Source: Janthinobacterium sp. PAMC25594 (GTDB lineage: Bacteria; Pseudomonadota; Gammaproteobacteria; Burkholderiales; Burkholderiaceae_D). From it: a stretch of DNA of 64,000 bases. A program made the translations under genes and the position numbers. The stretch spans positions 5,642,001 through 5,706,000 of the forward strand of contig NZ_CP080377.1 of NCBI RefSeq assembly GCF_019443505.1, given 5' to 3'. Below, one piece after another: positions 57,951 through 64,000 of this stretch (position 1 is its first letter; each line of letters begins with the position of its first letter). Under the pieces are notes generated by a model that was not told the DNA's origin, did no database searches, and saw only the letters and a program-made list of their open reading frames with translations.

Positions 57951-59141
57951 ATGACCGGCTTGACTGTGTATCTGAATGACTGCGGCATCGTCTGCGCGCT
58001 GGGCGCCGGCCGCGAAGAAGTGCGCGCGCGCCAGTTTGCCGCGCACAGCGGCGTGGTGTCCGTCGATACCTACACGCCGGGGCGCATGCTGCCGCTGGGC
58101 GTGGTCGACGCGGCCTTGCCATCGGTGGCGCATCACGGCATCGCCGCGCGCAGCCGCAACAACCGGATGGCGCTGGCGGCGCTGGCGCAGATCCGCCCCG
58201 CCGTGGAGCAGGCCATCGCCCATTACGGCGCGGACCGCGTGGCCGTGGTGATCGGCACCAGCACGTCGGGCATCGCCGAGACGGAAGGCGCGATCGGCCA
58301 GCATGTGGCGGGCGACGGCTTGCCGGCTGCCTTCCACTACGGCCAGCAGGAGATGGCGTCGCCGGCGCTGATGCTGGCCGGGGAACTGGGCATCGACGGC
58401 CCGGCCCTGGTGCATTCGAGCGCCTGTTCGTCGAGCGCCAAGGCGATGGCCAGCGCGGCGCGCCTGATCCGCATGGGCCTGTGCGACGCCGTGCTGACGG
58501 GCGGCGTCGATACCCTGTGCGGCTTTACCGTGGCCGGTTTTTCCGCGCTGGCGTCTGTCAGTGCGCGGCGCTGCAATCCGTTCGGCGCGAACCGCGACGG
58601 CATCAATATCGGCGAGGGCGCGGCCCTGTTCCTGATGACGGCGCAACCGGCCGCAGTGGCCTTGCGCGGCTGGGGCGAGTCGTCCGACGGCCACCATATG
58701 TCGGCGCCCGATCCCGCAGGCGGCGGCGCGCGGCTGGCCATCGCCCAGGCACTGGCGCGCGCCGGCATCGCGGCGTCGCAAGTCGACTATGTGAACCTGC
58801 ACGGCACGGCCACGCCGCAAAACGATGCGATGGAAGCGCGCGTGGTGTCCGAGCTGTTCGGCGCCACGGCGATGAGCAGCTCCACCAAGCCGCTGACAGG
58901 CCATGCGCTGGGCGCGGCGGCGGCCATCGAGGCCGCGCTTTGCTGGCTGGCGATGCAGGACGATAACGCCGAGGGCTTGCTGCCGCCGCACCTGTGGGAT
59001 GGCGTGCCCGATGAATCCCTGCCGCCGTTGCGCCTGGCCTTGCCCGGCGCGCGCCTGGGGCGTCCGCTCGACTGGGCCTTGAGCAATTCGTTTGCCTTCG
59101 GCGGCTCGAACGCCGCCTTGCTGTTCGGGAGGGGAGCATGA
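57951..59141 (+). CDS. Beta-ketoacyl-ACP synthase 1 (APE cluster)
   Basis: A 396-residue ketosynthase with a complete Cys-His-His triad: C159 in SSACSSSAKAMAS, His in NLHGTATPQNDAM, and His in KPLTGHALGAAAAIEA. It probably condenses the first or later malonyl units onto the aryl starter; ApeR- or ApeO-like. It begins at the stop of the lipoprotein gene and overlaps the dehydratase by 4 bp. Confidence 0.9.
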   Translation: MTGLTVYLNDCGIVCALGAGREEVRARQFAAHSGVVSVDTYTPGRMLPLGVVDAALPSVAHHGIAARSRNNRMALAALAQIRPAVEQAIAHYGADRVAVVIGTSTSGIAETEGAIGQHVAGDGLPAAFHYGQQEMASPALMLAGELGIDGPALVHSSACSSSAKAMASAARLIRMGLCDAVLTGGVDTLCGFTVAGFSALASVSARRCNPFGANRDGINIGEGAALFLMTAQPAAVALRGWGESSDGHHMSAPDPAGGGARLAIAQALARAGIAASQVDYVNLHGTATPQNDAMEARVVSELFGATAMSSSTKPLTGHALGAAAAIEAALCWLAMQDDNAEGLLPPHLWDGVPDESLPPLRLALPGARLGRPLDWALSNSFAFGGSNAALLFGRGA

Positions 59142-59611
59142 GTTTTCCGGATATCGGCGAGTTGGTGCCCCATTCCGGCGCCATGGTGCTGCTCGACCGG
59201 GTGCTCTCGGCCGATGCGGAAAACCTGTGCGCCGAAGTGGCCATCCATGCCGGCAGCGTGTTTTATGACGCGCCGTCGGCCGGCGTCGGCAGCTGGGTCG
59301 GCATCGAATACATGGCGCAGGCGATCGCCGCGCATGCGGGCTACCTGGCGCGGCTGGCCGGCGCGCCCGTGAAGATCGGTTTTTTGCTGGGGGCGCGGCG
59401 CTACGAAGCGCAAGTGCCCTTGTTTGTCGATGGCAGCGTGCTGCTGGTGCATGTGCAGCAGGCCTTGCAAGGCGAGAATGGACTGGGTGCGTTCGAGTGC
59501 CGTATCGAGATGGCGGGCGCCGTGCTGGCGCAGGCGACGATCACGGTATACCAGCCCGAGGATGCAAAGCAATTTCTGCAGGAGAGTATGAATGGAGCGC
59601 AGCATGAGTAA
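59138..59611 (+). CDS. 3-hydroxyacyl-ACP dehydratase, hotdog (ApeP-like)
   Basis: A 157-residue hotdog protein with LVPHSGAMVLLDRVLSADA at the N-terminus and GSWVGIEYMAQAIAAHAGY, typical of the FabZ-like ApeP group (catalytic His in PHSGAM). It probably forms the heterodimeric dehydratase with the hotdog domain fused to the ligase. It overlaps KS1 by 4 bp and the reductase by 8 bp. Confidence 0.9.
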   Translation: MSFPDIGELVPHSGAMVLLDRVLSADAENLCAEVAIHAGSVFYDAPSAGVGSWVGIEYMAQAIAAHAGYLARLAGAPVKIGFLLGARRYEAQVPLFVDGSVLLVHVQQALQGENGLGAFECRIEMAGAVLAQATITVYQPEDAKQFLQESMNGAQHE

Positions 59612-60329
59612 AAGTGTATTGGTGACGGGGTCGTCGCGCGGCATCGGCAAGGCCATCGCCTTGCGACTGGCGCGCGACGGTTTTGACGTGGTGCTGCATT
59701 GCCGCAGCGCGCGCGGCGAAGCCGACGCGGTGGCGCAGCAGGTGCGGGCGCTGGGACGCGCGGCGCGCGTGCTGCAGTTCGATATCGGCGACCGTGCCGC
59801 GGCGGCTAGCGCGCTGGAAGCGGACATCGCCGAACATGGCTGCTATTACGGCGTCGTGTGCAACGCCGGCGTGGCGCGCGACAATGCGTTTCCCGCCATG
59901 TCGGGCGAGGACTGGGACATCGTCCTGCAGACCAACCTCGATGGTTTCTACAATGTGCTGAACCCGCTGGTGATGCCGATGGTACAGCGCCGCAAACCGG
60001 GGCGCATCGTCACCATGGCGTCCGTTTCTGGCCTGATCGGCAACCGGGGGCAAGTCAATTACAGCGCGGCCAAGGCCGGCATCATCGGCGCGACCAAGGC
60101 GCTGGCGCTGGAACTGGCCAAGCGCGCCATCACCGTGAACTGCGTGGCGCCGGGCCTGATCGAGACGGACATGATCAGCGAGGTGCCGCTCGACGAAGCG
60201 CTGAAGATGATCCCCGCGCGCCGGGTCGGCACGCCGGAAGAGGTGGCCGCCGCCGTGAGTTTCCTTGTCGGCGAGGAGGCGGGCTACATCACGCGCCAGG
60301 TCATTTCCGTGAATGGAGGCATGGCATGA
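59604..60329 (+). CDS. 3-oxoacyl-ACP reductase (FabG-like ketoreductase)
   Basis: A 241-residue SDR with VLVTGSSRGIGKAIA (NADPH motif), N in VCNAGVARDNA, Ser in MASVSGLIGNRGQ, and YSAAKAG (YxxxK). ATG 59604 with GGAG six bases upstream fits better than ATG 59592. It reduces the beta-keto group in each polyene cycle (ApeQ-like). It overlaps the next ketosynthase by 4 bp. Confidence 0.92.
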   Translation: MSKSVLVTGSSRGIGKAIALRLARDGFDVVLHCRSARGEADAVAQQVRALGRAARVLQFDIGDRAAAASALEADIAEHGCYYGVVCNAGVARDNAFPAMSGEDWDIVLQTNLDGFYNVLNPLVMPMVQRRKPGRIVTMASVSGLIGNRGQVNYSAAKAGIIGATKALALELAKRAITVNCVAPGLIETDMISEVPLDEALKMIPARRVGTPEEVAAAVSFLVGEEAGYITRQVISVNGGMA

Positions 60330-61558
60330 GCCGCCGGGTAGTCGTGACCGGCATGGCCGGCATCAGCCCGATCGGCAATGACTGGCCGGCCATCCGCCAG
60401 CGCCTGGGCGAGTACCGCAACGCCATCGTGCGCATGGACGAATGGGCCGATTACGAAGGCTTGAACACGCAGCTGGGCGCGCCGGCCGCGCCGTTCGCGC
60501 TGACGGACCGTTACAACCGCAAGGCCGTGCGCAGCATGGGGCGCATCGCGCTGATGGCCACGCGCGCCAGCGAACTGGCGCTGGAACACGCGGGCCTGGC
60601 GGAACATCCCGTGGTCAAGAGCGGGCAGATGGGCATTTCCTTCGGTTCGTCCGCCGGCACGCCCAGCGCCATCGGCGACTTTGGCCGCATGATGGAAGAG
60701 CGCACCACCAAGGGCATCAACGCCACCACCTACATCAAGATGATGGCGCACACGGCGCCCGTGAATATCGGCGTGTTTTTCGGCGTCACGGGACGGGTCA
60801 TCACCACATCGAGCGCCTGCACCTCGGGCAGCCAGGGCATCGGCTATGCCTACGAGGCGATCGCCGGCGGCAAGCAGCTGGCGATGATCGCCGGCGGCGC
60901 CGAGGAGCTGTGCGCCACCGAGGCGGCCGTCTTCGACACCCTGTTCGCCACCAGCACGCGCAACGACGCGGGCCACACGACGCCGCGTCCGTTCGACGCC
61001 AGCCGCGATGGCCTGGTGATCGGCGAGGGCGCCGGTTGCCTGATCCTGGAAGAGTTCGAACACGCGCAGGCGCGCGGCGCCACCATCCATGCGGAGCTGG
61101 TGGGCTTCGGCACGAACAGCGATGGCTGCCACGTGACCCAGCCGAACGCCGCCACCATGCGCCAGGCGATGCTGCTGGCGCTGGCCGACGCGGGCTTGCA
61201 GCCGTCCGATATCGGCTACATCAATGCGCACGGCACCGGCACGCAGCAGGGTGATATCGCCGAGTCGCAAGCCACGTTCGAAGTGTTTGGCGACAGCACC
61301 CCTATCAGTTCGCTTAAAAGCTACATGGGCCACACCCTGGGTGCCTGCGGCGCGCTGGAAGCGTGGATCAGCATCGAGATGATGCGCGAAGGCTGGTTTG
61401 CCCCCACCATCAACTTGCGGCAAGTCGACGCGCAATGCGCGCCGCTCGATTACATCACCGGCGAAGGCCGGGCCATCGAATGCGAATACGTGATGTCGAA
61501 CAATTTTGCCTTTGGCGGCATCAATACGTCGTTGATTTTCAGGCGTTACCGGCCGTGA
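60326..61558 (+). CDS. Beta-ketoacyl-ACP synthase 2 (APE cluster, ApeO-like)
   Basis: A 410-residue ketosynthase. The triad is C165 in TTSSACTSGSQGIG, His in NAHGTGTQQGDIAE, and His in KSYMGHTLGACGALEA. The C-terminus NNFAFGGINTSLIF is typical. It is the last gene of the cluster. Its 3' 165 bp (61394-61558) recur as a decayed copy at 63602-63768. It probably pairs with the chain-length-factor protein. Confidence 0.92.
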   Translation: MSRRVVVTGMAGISPIGNDWPAIRQRLGEYRNAIVRMDEWADYEGLNTQLGAPAAPFALTDRYNRKAVRSMGRIALMATRASELALEHAGLAEHPVVKSGQMGISFGSSAGTPSAIGDFGRMMEERTTKGINATTYIKMMAHTAPVNIGVFFGVTGRVITTSSACTSGSQGIGYAYEAIAGGKQLAMIAGGAEELCATEAAVFDTLFATSTRNDAGHTTPRPFDASRDGLVIGEGAGCLILEEFEHAQARGATIHAELVGFGTNSDGCHVTQPNAATMRQAMLLALADAGLQPSDIGYINAHGTGTQQGDIAESQATFEVFGDSTPISSLKSYMGHTLGACGALEAWISIEMMREGWFAPTINLRQVDAQCAPLDYITGEGRAIECEYVMSNNFAFGGINTSLIFRRYRP

Positions 61559-62763
61559 CTTCGCTGGCGATAATTTGCCGGCGATATGCTCGCTGTGCAT
61601 GCATGGTGGCGACGCTGGCAGCGCTGACGGCATGTGGCACGCTGTCACGGATGGAAATCGATTCTGACAATGCATCGAGCGAGCGCTACGCCATCAGCGG
61701 CGATCTGCGCAAGGAAGTCGATTCGTTGGCACAGCCATTGATCGACAGCGGCGCCACGCCAGGGCTGGTGGTCGGTGTTGTGCTGCCAGATGGCAGCACG
61801 CAGAGCTTTGGATACGGTACGACCGAACATGCGGTGAGCGGCCATCGACCCGACGGCGACACCCTGTTTGCCGTTGGCTCGGTCAGCAAGGGTTTCTTGA
61901 GCGCAACGACGGCGGTATTGGTACAGCAGGGCGTGTTTGCATGGAACGACACTCTCGAACAGTTGCTGCCACCTGGTACGTCACTGAGCGACTCTGCACG
62001 CAAGATCACCTTGCTGCAACTGGTCACGCATACATCGGGCTTGCCGCGGCAGCCATTTACGCCGCAAACCTTGCTGTACTTCGTGGAGTATCTGTTTACG
62101 GGGGCCAGCTTTTACCGGCATTTTGACCGTGACTACCTGCTGGCCTACCTTGCCGATTTTGATGCGCCCGCAACGACGGCGCCCAATTATTCGAATATCG
62201 GCTATGGCTTGCTGGGACATGTGCTTGAACTGCGTACCGGAAAAAAGATGGATGCGCTGGTGCAGGAAACCATATTGCAACCACTGGCACTCGATAGCAC
62301 CGGTTACCGCCCGCAGGGCTTGCCTGGCTTTGCCGCACGAGCCCATGGTCATGTGGGCGATCAGCCTAAATTCATGCGGCGCGGGAGCGAAGCGCCGGAT
62401 TGGGAGTTCACCGATGTGTTGACGGGCTCGGCTGCCTTGTATTCGACGGCGAATGATTTGTTGCGCTATGCACGGGCGAATATCCGGGGTAGCGACGATC
62501 CCGTGCTGGACCGTGCCTTGCAAGACACTTTGAGCGTGCGTGTCGACCGGCCAGTCGAGGCGGCGGCACTGGCCTGGCTGGTGGATGATATTGATGGCAT
62601 TAAGATCACCTATCAGGTGGGTTTTGTGGCGGGCTACTCAAGCTATATCGGTCTCGATGTAAAGAATCGCACGGGCGTGGTGGTATTGCAAAACAGTTTC
62701 AACTGGACCAATAGCATCGGCCACCGTTTGTTGTTGAGAATTTCCAAGCGGAAATCCATTTAA
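61555..62763 (+). CDS. Lipoprotein serine hydrolase (beta-lactamase family)
   Basis: A 402-residue class-C-like hydrolase. GTG 61555 overlaps the ketosynthase stop (GTGA) and gives a basic N-terminus (RRYAR), then a hydrophobic stretch and the lipobox LTAC (C27); ATG 61603 would leave no charged n-region. The SxxK is S109-V-S-K112 (FAVGSVSKGF), with a Tyr motif YSN in APNYSNIGYG. The third motif is less clear (VGFVAGYSSY). Between the APE cluster and a ketosynthase remnant, it may be part of an inserted segment. Substrate unknown. Confidence 0.82.
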   Translation: MTSLAIICRRYARCACMVATLAALTACGTLSRMEIDSDNASSERYAISGDLRKEVDSLAQPLIDSGATPGLVVGVVLPDGSTQSFGYGTTEHAVSGHRPDGDTLFAVGSVSKGFLSATTAVLVQQGVFAWNDTLEQLLPPGTSLSDSARKITLLQLVTHTSGLPRQPFTPQTLLYFVEYLFTGASFYRHFDRDYLLAYLADFDAPATTAPNYSNIGYGLLGHVLELRTGKKMDALVQETILQPLALDSTGYRPQGLPGFAARAHGHVGDQPKFMRRGSEAPDWEFTDVLTGSAALYSTANDLLRYARANIRGSDDPVLDRALQDTLSVRVDRPVEAAALAWLVDDIDGIKITYQVGFVAGYSSYIGLDVKNRTGVVVLQNSFNWTNSIGHRLLLRISKRKSI

Positions 62764-62800
62764 ATGTAAAATTACAGTTCAGATAACTAATGGAGTAATT

Positions 62801-63442
62801 GTGAAACATGTTTTTAAGCTGTTATTCGTGATGATGTGTAGTCTCGCCATTGCAGGATGCAAGAGCCGGCCGGTGCCGCGTTCCGCTTACCAGACGACCT
62901 TGCCGCAAGTGGGCACGGTGGTGACCATCGGCATTGGTGAAAGAATGTTGACCAAGAGCGATGCGTCGGAAACGCGGGCGCTGATTCTTGCGCAGGACCA
63001 GCCTCTCGGCGAGTTTGTTGTGCGTAAGGGAACGTATCCGCAAATTGCAGACAAGGAAGAATATCAAACCTTCGGCGGCGTGGTGATCGCGAATGCGCAG
63101 GGTACCGTTGCCAAGCATAATAAGCTGCATCTGTTTAGCAAGGATGGCTCCGTATGTATTGGACGTGCGCCGTGTGCAAAGGTCGATTACGTGATGGGCG
63201 TCACGACGAACTACCAACAGGCGAGTTTCCAGAGCACTTTGATTTACAGTGGTCGTATCGGCGACAGGATCACCCTGGGTTATCGTGAATTCGATCGCAA
63301 CATGGCACGGCCGGCGTTTAGTAATGATGTGACTTACGATTTGTCCGAGTCCATGATCCTGGGTTACAAAGGAGCAAGGTTGGAAGTGCTGCACGCGAGT
63401 AATACTGAAATTAGCTATAAAGTCCTGGCAGGATTTGATTGA
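62801..63442 (+). CDS. Hypothetical lipoprotein, AT-richer than its neighbours
   Basis: A 213-residue protein starting at GTG 62801 (TGGAGT lies 6-11 bases upstream) with a signal and lipobox AIAGC (Cys about residue 20). The body is soluble and beta-rich with two Cys in SVCIGRAPCAKV. I recognise no family. Base composition and codon use are visibly lower in GC than in the surrounding genes, consistent with acquisition from elsewhere. It lies 37 bp after the serine hydrolase gene. Confidence 0.65.
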   Translation: MKHVFKLLFVMMCSLAIAGCKSRPVPRSAYQTTLPQVGTVVTIGIGERMLTKSDASETRALILAQDQPLGEFVVRKGTYPQIADKEEYQTFGGVVIANAQGTVAKHNKLHLFSKDGSVCIGRAPCAKVDYVMGVTTNYQQASFQSTLIYSGRIGDRITLGYREFDRNMARPAFSNDVTYDLSESMILGYKGARLEVLHASNTEISYKVLAGFD

Positions 63443-63835
63443 AGTGCGGCTGCGTCGTGATCTTTCTTGCCAATGTGCAGATTATCGACGCGGCTCAGCT
63501 AGCCCTGGTTCTCTTCTGGCTGCCTTTAGGCGGAAATAGCCCGTCATGCAGGCTTTGTGTGGCCGCTGTCGCAGTCCAGTTCCTGATGGTGCGCCGAAAG
63601 TTGGTTTGCGCCCACCATAAACTTACAGCAGGTCGCCCCCCGTAATGCGCGCCACATGCCTATATCGCGGGTGAAGGCAGGGCGATCGAATGCGAGTACG
63701 TGAGGTCGAATAACTTTGCCTTTGACGGTATCAACATGTCGCTGATTTTCAATCGGTACCGACCGTAATGCCCGTTGGCGCAAGCGGCAAGTGTGGCTTC
63801 TTTTGTACTATCTCTATCTTATTGAGGAAAACAGC
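63443..63835. other. Intergenic gap holding a ketosynthase remnant
   Basis: There is no intact gene in this 393-bp gap. From 63602 to 63768 it carries the decayed ketosynthase 3' end described separately; 63443-63601 may include further-diverged ketosynthase sequence but I cannot align it with confidence. An AT-rich stretch at 63798-63830 with a GAGGA RBS precedes the last gene. Confidence 0.6.
63602..63768 (+). pseudogene. Decayed duplicate of the ketosynthase 3' end
   Basis: Aligned by eye with 61394-61558 (the last 55 codons of the ApeO-like gene). The remnant is 2 bp longer, giving a frameshift near 63640. Before the shift it reads WFAPTINLQQV against WFAPTINLRQV; after it, IECEYVRSNNFAFDGIN against IECEYVMSNNFAFGGIN, ending YRP and a stop at the same place. 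Substitutions include stops and missense changes in conserved positions (GG to DG). No promoter or start is attached. Confidence 0.85.
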
Positions 63836-64000
63836 ATGAAAAAAACGATGATCCTGGCGGCAATGACGGCAACTCTGGCGGTGGTTCTGCCTGCGCAGGC
63901 AGCCGATACCAAACATATGATGCCGATCGCTGGCGCCATGGCCGCCAACGACGCCCAGGCTCGCCTTGGCGATAGCGTGCAGTTCTTCTTTGGTGATCAG
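63836..64000 (+). CDS. Small secreted protein (3' end outside window)
   Basis: Open to the window edge (55 codons visible). ATG 63836, with GAGGA eight to nine bases upstream, begins MKKTMILAAMTATLAVVLPA and a signal peptide ending PAQAADT, followed by a short sequence MPIAGAMAANDAQARLGDSV. I recall similar small periplasmic Burkholderiales proteins that databases mislabel as excinuclease subunits, but I cannot confirm this. Function unknown. Confidence 0.6.
   Translation, partial: MKKTMILAAMTATLAVVLPAQAADTKHMMPIAGAMAANDAQARLGDSVQFFFGDQ

Follow-up and report, generated by a model that had tools for sequence, protein, structure and literature searches.

Why does the 3′ end of one pigment gene occur twice, once intact and once broken, on the two sides of a pair of lipoprotein genes? 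The question is raised by a 64,000-nt window (C1:5642001-5706000) of the single-contig, 6.55-Mb genome of Janthinobacterium sp. PAMC25594 (G000; other G numbers denote compared genomes). In this window an ApeR-type ketosynthase gene of an aryl polyene (APE)-type pigment cluster occupies 60326-61558 on the forward strand. Reading on in the same direction, the order is ApeR, a lipoprotein serine hydrolase gene, a second predicted lipoprotein gene, the broken start of a phosphopantetheinyl transferase (PPT) gene, the broken ApeR end, the gene starting at 63836, which we refer to as "next", and PPT. We propose that this interval is probably a recombination scar, in which two alternative versions of the ApeR-to-PPT gap were joined head to tail through a homologous crossover in ApeR and one illegitimate joint.

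A search of the whole genome aligned the ApeR end at 61394-61560 with 63602-63766 at 79% identity (E = 2.0e-34), and the next best site comprised only 23 bases (E = 0.003). The local alignment score of the two ends was 95, whereas 300 two-base-block shuffles scored 16 at most. The initial annotation, which had reported the recurrence at 63602-63768, was therefore upheld, with a slightly longer homology that begins at 63585: ApeR nucleotides 1053-1231 matched 63585-63766 at 79.1% over 182 columns, corresponding to about 181 bp of ApeR, and we delimited the broken 3′ end (nucleotides 1053-1233) at 63585-63768. As also stated there, the final stop is in the same place in both copies (TGA at 61556-61558 in the intact gene, TAA at 63766-63768 in the broken end). 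The copy had further been described as frameshifted and partly filled with stops. We confirmed a 2-base insertion near 63636 and one in-frame stop created by a CAA-to-TAA change at 63643-63645, and observed a 1-base difference near 63595, just inside the joint; the remaining stops are out of frame, and the damage to the frame is modest overall.

For comparison, we assembled 71 distinct loci with ApeR at more than 72% identity. These comprised 14 loci from the genus (the genomes holding ApeR at E ≤ 1e-100 among 40 searched, with one genome per species available), 31 of 34 loci fetched from other genera of the family, in which 87 genomes had ApeR, and 26 of 80 named loci, of which 34 passed the identity cut and 8 were dropped as duplicates in a 900-base comparison. 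Among the 71 ApeR ends, the eight nearest to the broken end belonged to other genomes, led by G025 and G004, and the end of its own genome ranked ninth; the latter was at least as near in only 10 of 2000 bootstraps. The broken end lies 67 bp upstream of next, where intact ApeR lies 73-74 bp upstream in the five relatives measured, and the ApeR-next spacers of G000, G004 and G025 look alike where compared. Because the spacing is near-normal and the nearest sequences are the ApeR ends of other genomes, we interpret the broken copy as an ApeR end in its ordinary place, with the two lipoprotein genes lying in front of it. The initial annotation had considered instead that a second ketosynthase once ended a longer cluster and was later lost. 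A ketosynthase 3′ end does stand before next, as such a loss would leave it; by contrast, its spacing and sequence match ApeR itself in relatives, the nearest sequences (G025, G004) are ordinary ApeR ends, and ApeR gave one match at E ≤ 1e-100 in each of the 14 genus genomes, with no second ApeR-type gene seen. We regard this loss as very improbable.

The other option raised there was the insertion of a segment with a duplicated end, for which a strain carrying a single ketosynthase end directly before the gene at 63836 had been named as support. Such an arrangement was found in 7 of the 14 genus genomes (G004, G023, G025, G028, G032, G061 and G001), and G012 has a shortened next after ApeR. 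The hydrolase and lipoprotein genes follow ApeR in only three (G000, G035 and G011), and ApeR leads straight to PPT in the other three (G021, G027 and G034). As a separate observation, only residues ~70-149 of next are left in G012 (locus L038), roughly 130-370 bp behind ApeR, and this remnant represents another decaying gene in this gap. The comparison supported the insertion; the word "duplicated" did not quite hold, as the two ends are different alleles (see below).

The joint itself is explained by a second fossil that the initial annotation had missed, the broken 5′ end of a PPT gene at 63443-63594, which precedes the ApeR fossil. Positions 63484-63594 matched the 5′ part of G032 PPT (E = 1e-9; alignment score 37 versus a shuffle maximum of 18), with shorter agreeing matches to G035 (9e-9) and G004 (3e-8). 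The first ~40 bases (63443-63483) were assigned through a less strong alignment, in which the match to G011 extends across the lipoprotein stop into PPT (59%, E = 2e-6; score 20 versus a shuffle maximum of 17). No next was found in G011, where PPT starts immediately after the lipoprotein stop. In G000, the PPT and ApeR stumps meet within the 10 bp of 63585-63594, where their alignments overlap, forming a border between unrelated sequences that share little or no homology. Because the PPT stump follows the lipoprotein gene as PPT does in G011, and the ApeR stump precedes next and PPT, we read the order in G000 as version A (ApeR-hydrolase-lipoprotein-PPT, as in G011) joined to version B (ApeR-next-PPT, the commonest order). 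In G035, a PPT stump directly follows the lipoprotein gene and is followed by a broken next remnant and then PPT. The stumps of G000 and G035 most likely share one origin, because they have in common a 1-base insertion that is absent from six of six aligned intact PPT genes. The next remnant of G035 (oriented region 3218-3426 of L036), which corresponds to the C-terminal half with one stop, is a second scar at the same slot.

We then compared the two ApeR ends by their substitutions. At nine sites, the intact G000 end differs from the base held by at least five of six single-end species; at 9/9 of them the broken copy carries this common base, and the derived bases of the intact end occur in it at 0/9. 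Because the common base is kept at all nine diagnostic sites, we conclude from these alignments that the broken copy does not descend from the present intact end and that the two ends represent different alleles. A tandem duplication of the ApeR-to-PPT segment within one genome, after which one copy each of ApeR and PPT decayed, would produce the observed order of version A, two stumps and version B as a partial tandem duplicate. Given that none of the changes of the intact end appear in the broken one, and that version A stands by itself in G011, where the search for an ApeR-end fossil found none, we consider such a duplication improbable. The presence of a gene end rebuilt by a newcomer, with another end left at the far border, also recalls the insertion of a site-specific element at the 3′ end of ApeR, in the way that islands rebuild tRNA genes. 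By contrast, the 181-bp repeat is only 79% alike and abuts a PPT fragment instead of an element end. No integrase gene was found in the insert, in which the hydrolase belongs to PF00144 and neither the lipoprotein nor the five other frames of at least 80 amino acids lying wholly inside matched a Pfam family; insertion of such an element seems highly unlikely. We therefore dropped the lost ketosynthase on spacing and sequence, the tandem duplication on the 0/9 derived bases and the integrating element on the missing integrase.

In the scheme that we favor, a version-A fragment, presumably from another cell, would have paired with the resident ApeR and crossed over inside it, while its other end, cut inside PPT, would have been joined illegitimately, where a few bases happened to be similar, to the 3′ part of the resident ApeR. 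ApeR would have stayed whole because the newcomer carried its own ApeR 3′ end, together with the overlapping hydrolase start. The resident ApeR end, displaced 2.2 kb downstream, would have decayed because it was redundant, and the PPT stump would have decayed too. With next and the downstream PPT retained, the cluster would have gained two genes and lost none. Alongside the two versions, the two stumps and the allelic difference that we observed, we infer the donor cell, the crossover in ApeR and the direction of the event. With regard to an origin of the DNA in another cell, the distribution of the block is patchy and the divergence is mixed.

The distribution of substitutions along ApeR is consistent with the intact end having arrived with the hydrolase block. 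Among eight close genomes, all seven substitutions private to G000 fell in the last 369 bp of ApeR (0, 0, 0, 0, 0, 0, 0, 1, 3 and 3 per 123-bp bin), a clustering with P of about 2e-4, uncorrected for the choice of stretch; we delimited the candidate imported stretch holding them at 61187-61558. In G035, 6 of 15 private changes fell in the last 123 bp (P about 0.002). The GTG start of the hydrolase overlaps the ApeR stop (GTGA), from which the initial annotation had concluded that the hydrolase is now coupled to the pigment operon. The overlap is present and is not peculiar to G000; because the hydrolase frame starts at the identical position relative to ApeR in G000, G035 and G011, the coupling belongs to version A and was not made by the scar.

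Several observations weigh against this scheme. A cluster of private changes comparable to that of G000 exists at the ApeR 5′ end of G025 (5 of 11 in the first 123 bp), and within ApeR there are not enough site patterns to position a crossover; across the upstream region plus ApeR, four-genome site patterns favored the species tree by 302 versus 37 and 45. In a tree of the upstream 15 kb from 13 genomes, G000 joins G025 and G035 joins G004. G000 and G035 are thus not sisters, and because both sister species are without the hydrolase-lipoprotein block, their shared fossil requires either losses in those species or transfer of the composite. Support for the grouping of G000 with G035 in the tail tree is weak (0.79). 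Synonymous divergence (dS) between these two genomes is 0.27 in the lipoprotein gene, close to the 0.25 of ApeR and giving no sign of a recent transfer of version A between them, and 0.52 in the hydrolase gene, double that of either; their identity is 79-83% across the ApeR stop and the 5′ part of the hydrolase gene and rises to 91-94% towards the lipoprotein gene. On the downstream side, next of G000 is 84-85% identical to that of six relatives, five of which are 90.8-93.5% identical to one another, with G032, the sixth, at 85.9-87.9%. The dS of next is 0.66 between G000 and G025, compared with 0.26 between G025 and G004, so that the downstream half is possibly the import. Moreover, the changes in the broken ApeR end lie mostly at third codon positions (3, 6 and 16 of 55, 54 and 54 at the first, second and third positions), which suggests that, for the greater part of the time since it separated, it was evolving as a coding sequence, a pattern that would fit a late import of the B half equally well.

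These signals bear on the opposite polarity, reached in two steps, in which the hydrolase, lipoprotein and PPT stump would have been resident, as in G035, and a fragment with an ApeR end and next, perhaps also PPT, would later have come from a more distant lineage and been attached behind them by an illegitimate joint at its left side. Besides the divergence of next from that of the sister species and the coding-like pattern still visible in the broken end, this order of events would account for the grouping of next of G000 with that of G032 (0.98 in the tree) and for a PPT fossil, common to G035, that predates the split of the two A blocks. By contrast, the changes private to G000 in the 3′ part of intact ApeR indicate the A side as the imported one, and the next remnant behind the PPT fossil of G035 indicates that B material was already present. 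We consider this polarity possible, though on balance unlikely. The divergence along ApeR, hydrolase, lipoprotein, next and PPT gives mixed signals and does not settle which half is the newcomer, and an ApeR-anchored import of version A remains the account that we prefer.

We also observed that in the 4 kb behind PPT (L030), G000 is closer to G028 and G061, at 92-93%, than to G025, its sister in the upstream tree, at 84%. Because of this affinity, recombination or rearrangement appears to continue beyond the slot.

The two genes carried by version A were characterized by family and profile searches. The hydrolase (61555-62763) matched PF00144 (E = 4.7e-47), has a lipobox as judged by eye, and keeps the motifs SVSK and YSN, with Q-V/I-G as the third motif in four of four aligned sequences (QVG in G000). 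By the motif scheme of this superfamily, the third motif usually has His or Lys where this hydrolase has Gln. A hydrolase relative at 64% identity was observed in another genus (G153, L170), where it lies behind PPT, 1621-2820 bp after ApeR. The 213-residue predicted lipoprotein (62801-63442) matched no Pfam or NCBIfam family. Its gene has a GC content of 51.9%, compared with 63.4% for the window, in agreement with the lower GC noted by the initial annotation; next is also low, at 54.0%. Between G000 and G035, the ratio of nonsynonymous to synonymous divergence (dN/dS) was 0.09 for the hydrolase and 0.10 for the lipoprotein.

The lipoprotein matched the phage protein family PHROG 1353 over nearly its full length (E = 5.7e-42; residues 9-213 on profile positions 6-227 of 230). 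Relatives were present in 33 of 50,697 phage records, five of them over at least 80% of the length; these five, at 33-35% identity, comprise four Acinetobacter phage records and one Moraxella phage record, and in the two records inspected the relatives lie near tail genes. The other 28 records, from Salmonella and Klebsiella phages, match the last 72 residues only. Relatives were also present in 13 of 72,556 plasmid records and, at 86% identity, in Janthinobacterium sp. JC611. A family of phage cargo thus sits inside the pigment cluster. Going by lipoprotein signals judged by eye, a role of the hydrolase and lipoprotein in handling or protecting the outer membrane would be a guess.

The gene that follows the scar, next (63836-64000, running beyond the window to position 3960 of L030), encodes 149 amino acids with a weak, below-cut-off match to YbjQ_1 and is the usual neighbor of ApeR, being the first gene after it in 38 of 71 loci. 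To survey the gap, four gene families besides PPT were sought at E ≤ 1e-6 within 3 kb of ApeR, and broken copies were counted as present. The commonest order behind ApeR was next-PPT (21/71), followed by PPT immediately behind ApeR (17/71), next-DUF4410-like lipoprotein-PPT (9/71), DUF4410-like lipoprotein-next-PPT (7/71) and next with no PPT detected (6/71). Two loci each had hydrolase-lipoprotein-next-PPT (G000, and G035 with its broken next), next-lipoprotein-PPT, and next-PPT with a DUF4410-like gene behind PPT. Single loci had hydrolase-lipoprotein-PPT, lipoprotein-next-PPT, PPT-hydrolase, PPT-DUF4410-like and DUF4410-like-PPT. The match to DUF4410 itself is under the cut-off and weak (E = 0.0011). 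The lipoprotein so named, of ~195 amino acids, occurs on either side of next: between next and PPT in G004, G023, G025, G028, G061 and G012, and between ApeR and next in the Massilia/Telluria loci L088-L091. From these gene orders, the ApeR-PPT gap is a slot for up to three of four predicted envelope-protein genes.

A cross-comparison at E ≤ 1e-4, with at least 4.9 kb of downstream sequence in 66 of the 71 loci and less than 1.5 kb in two, detected an ApeR-end fossil in G000 only (1/71). Short self-matches to the own ApeR end in G027 (30 bp), L077 (25 bp), L089 (24 bp, other strand) and L109 (49 bp, 78%, E = 3e-6) were left uncounted; none of the four reaches the gene end. Because the fossil was found in one locus of 71, the swapping route seen in G000 is not shown to be general; an ordinary double-crossover replacement would leave no trace. 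As a tentative and rather doubtful extension, the ApeR-to-PPT gap may be a general exchange slot for envelope proteins (the hydrolase, the PHROG 1353 and DUF4410-like lipoproteins and next), renewed by ApeR-anchored displacement recombination. With one cargo family also borne by phages, such a slot may supply the outer membrane that bears the pigment with lipoproteins that block phages or handle lipids.

The identity of the anchor gene was examined against solved structures. The ketosynthase at 60326-61558 (PF00109/PF02801) is closest to 4EWG (550 bits) and 7F27 (AbApeR, 514 bits), with the next best at 250 bits. Because both structures are treated as ApeR in PMC8358021, we assign the gene as ApeR-type; it closes the pathway part of an APE-type cluster. 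The initial annotation had called it ApeO-like; that label fits the gene at 57951-59141 (6QSP chain A, 308 bits; 7F28 chain B, 285 bits). A short-chain dehydrogenase gene (ketoreductase, ApeQ-like) at 59592-60329 overlaps the ApeR start. APE biosynthetic clusters are described as comprising ApeA-ApeR (PMC8253772, PMC8358021), and in one description ApeR is flanked by ApeQ and by a protein whose function is unknown (PMC8358021). As in these descriptions, ApeR here follows the ketoreductase gene. Unlike the E. coli APE cluster, which is said in PMC8253772 to be without PPT, a PPT gene lies behind ApeR, and unlike the known clusters, a variable set of predicted envelope genes lies between the two.

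A comparable process has been proposed for effector modules of the Vibrio type VI secretion system (T6SS), where displacement by homology-facilitated illegitimate recombination is discussed (PMC5361080). As in the arrangement outlined there, a conserved upstream sequence would serve as anchor, a new module lies ahead of the old one, and the 3′ end of the displaced gene is shifted back and left behind. Unlike the Vibrio loci as presented in that source, the anchor here is a pigment ketosynthase and the cargo consists of predicted envelope proteins, a second stump (PPT) would mark where the other fragment broke, and no stacking of several events was seen, with the ApeR-end fossil confined to one locus. 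Homology-facilitated illegitimate recombination is also described in transformation and conjugation (PMC3240628), with one homologous and one illegitimate end, as we propose for the present case from sequence alone. By analogy, the mechanism is one already proposed for T6SS loci, and the pigment cluster would be a new setting for it. A literature search of titles and abstract openings found no paper on accessory-gene exchange at the ends of APE clusters, which is not proof of absence.

Changes of accessory genes in such clusters are usually inferred from presence or absence alone. In the present case, living relatives retain both parental orders, and each order has left a stump at the joint, which can still be read, so that a route of gain can be stated and tested. 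The survey also draws attention to four predicted envelope genes, so far unstudied, as candidate partners of the pigment pathway. Collectively, these findings suggest that the scar is a readable fossil of how pigment operons can swap accessory genes.

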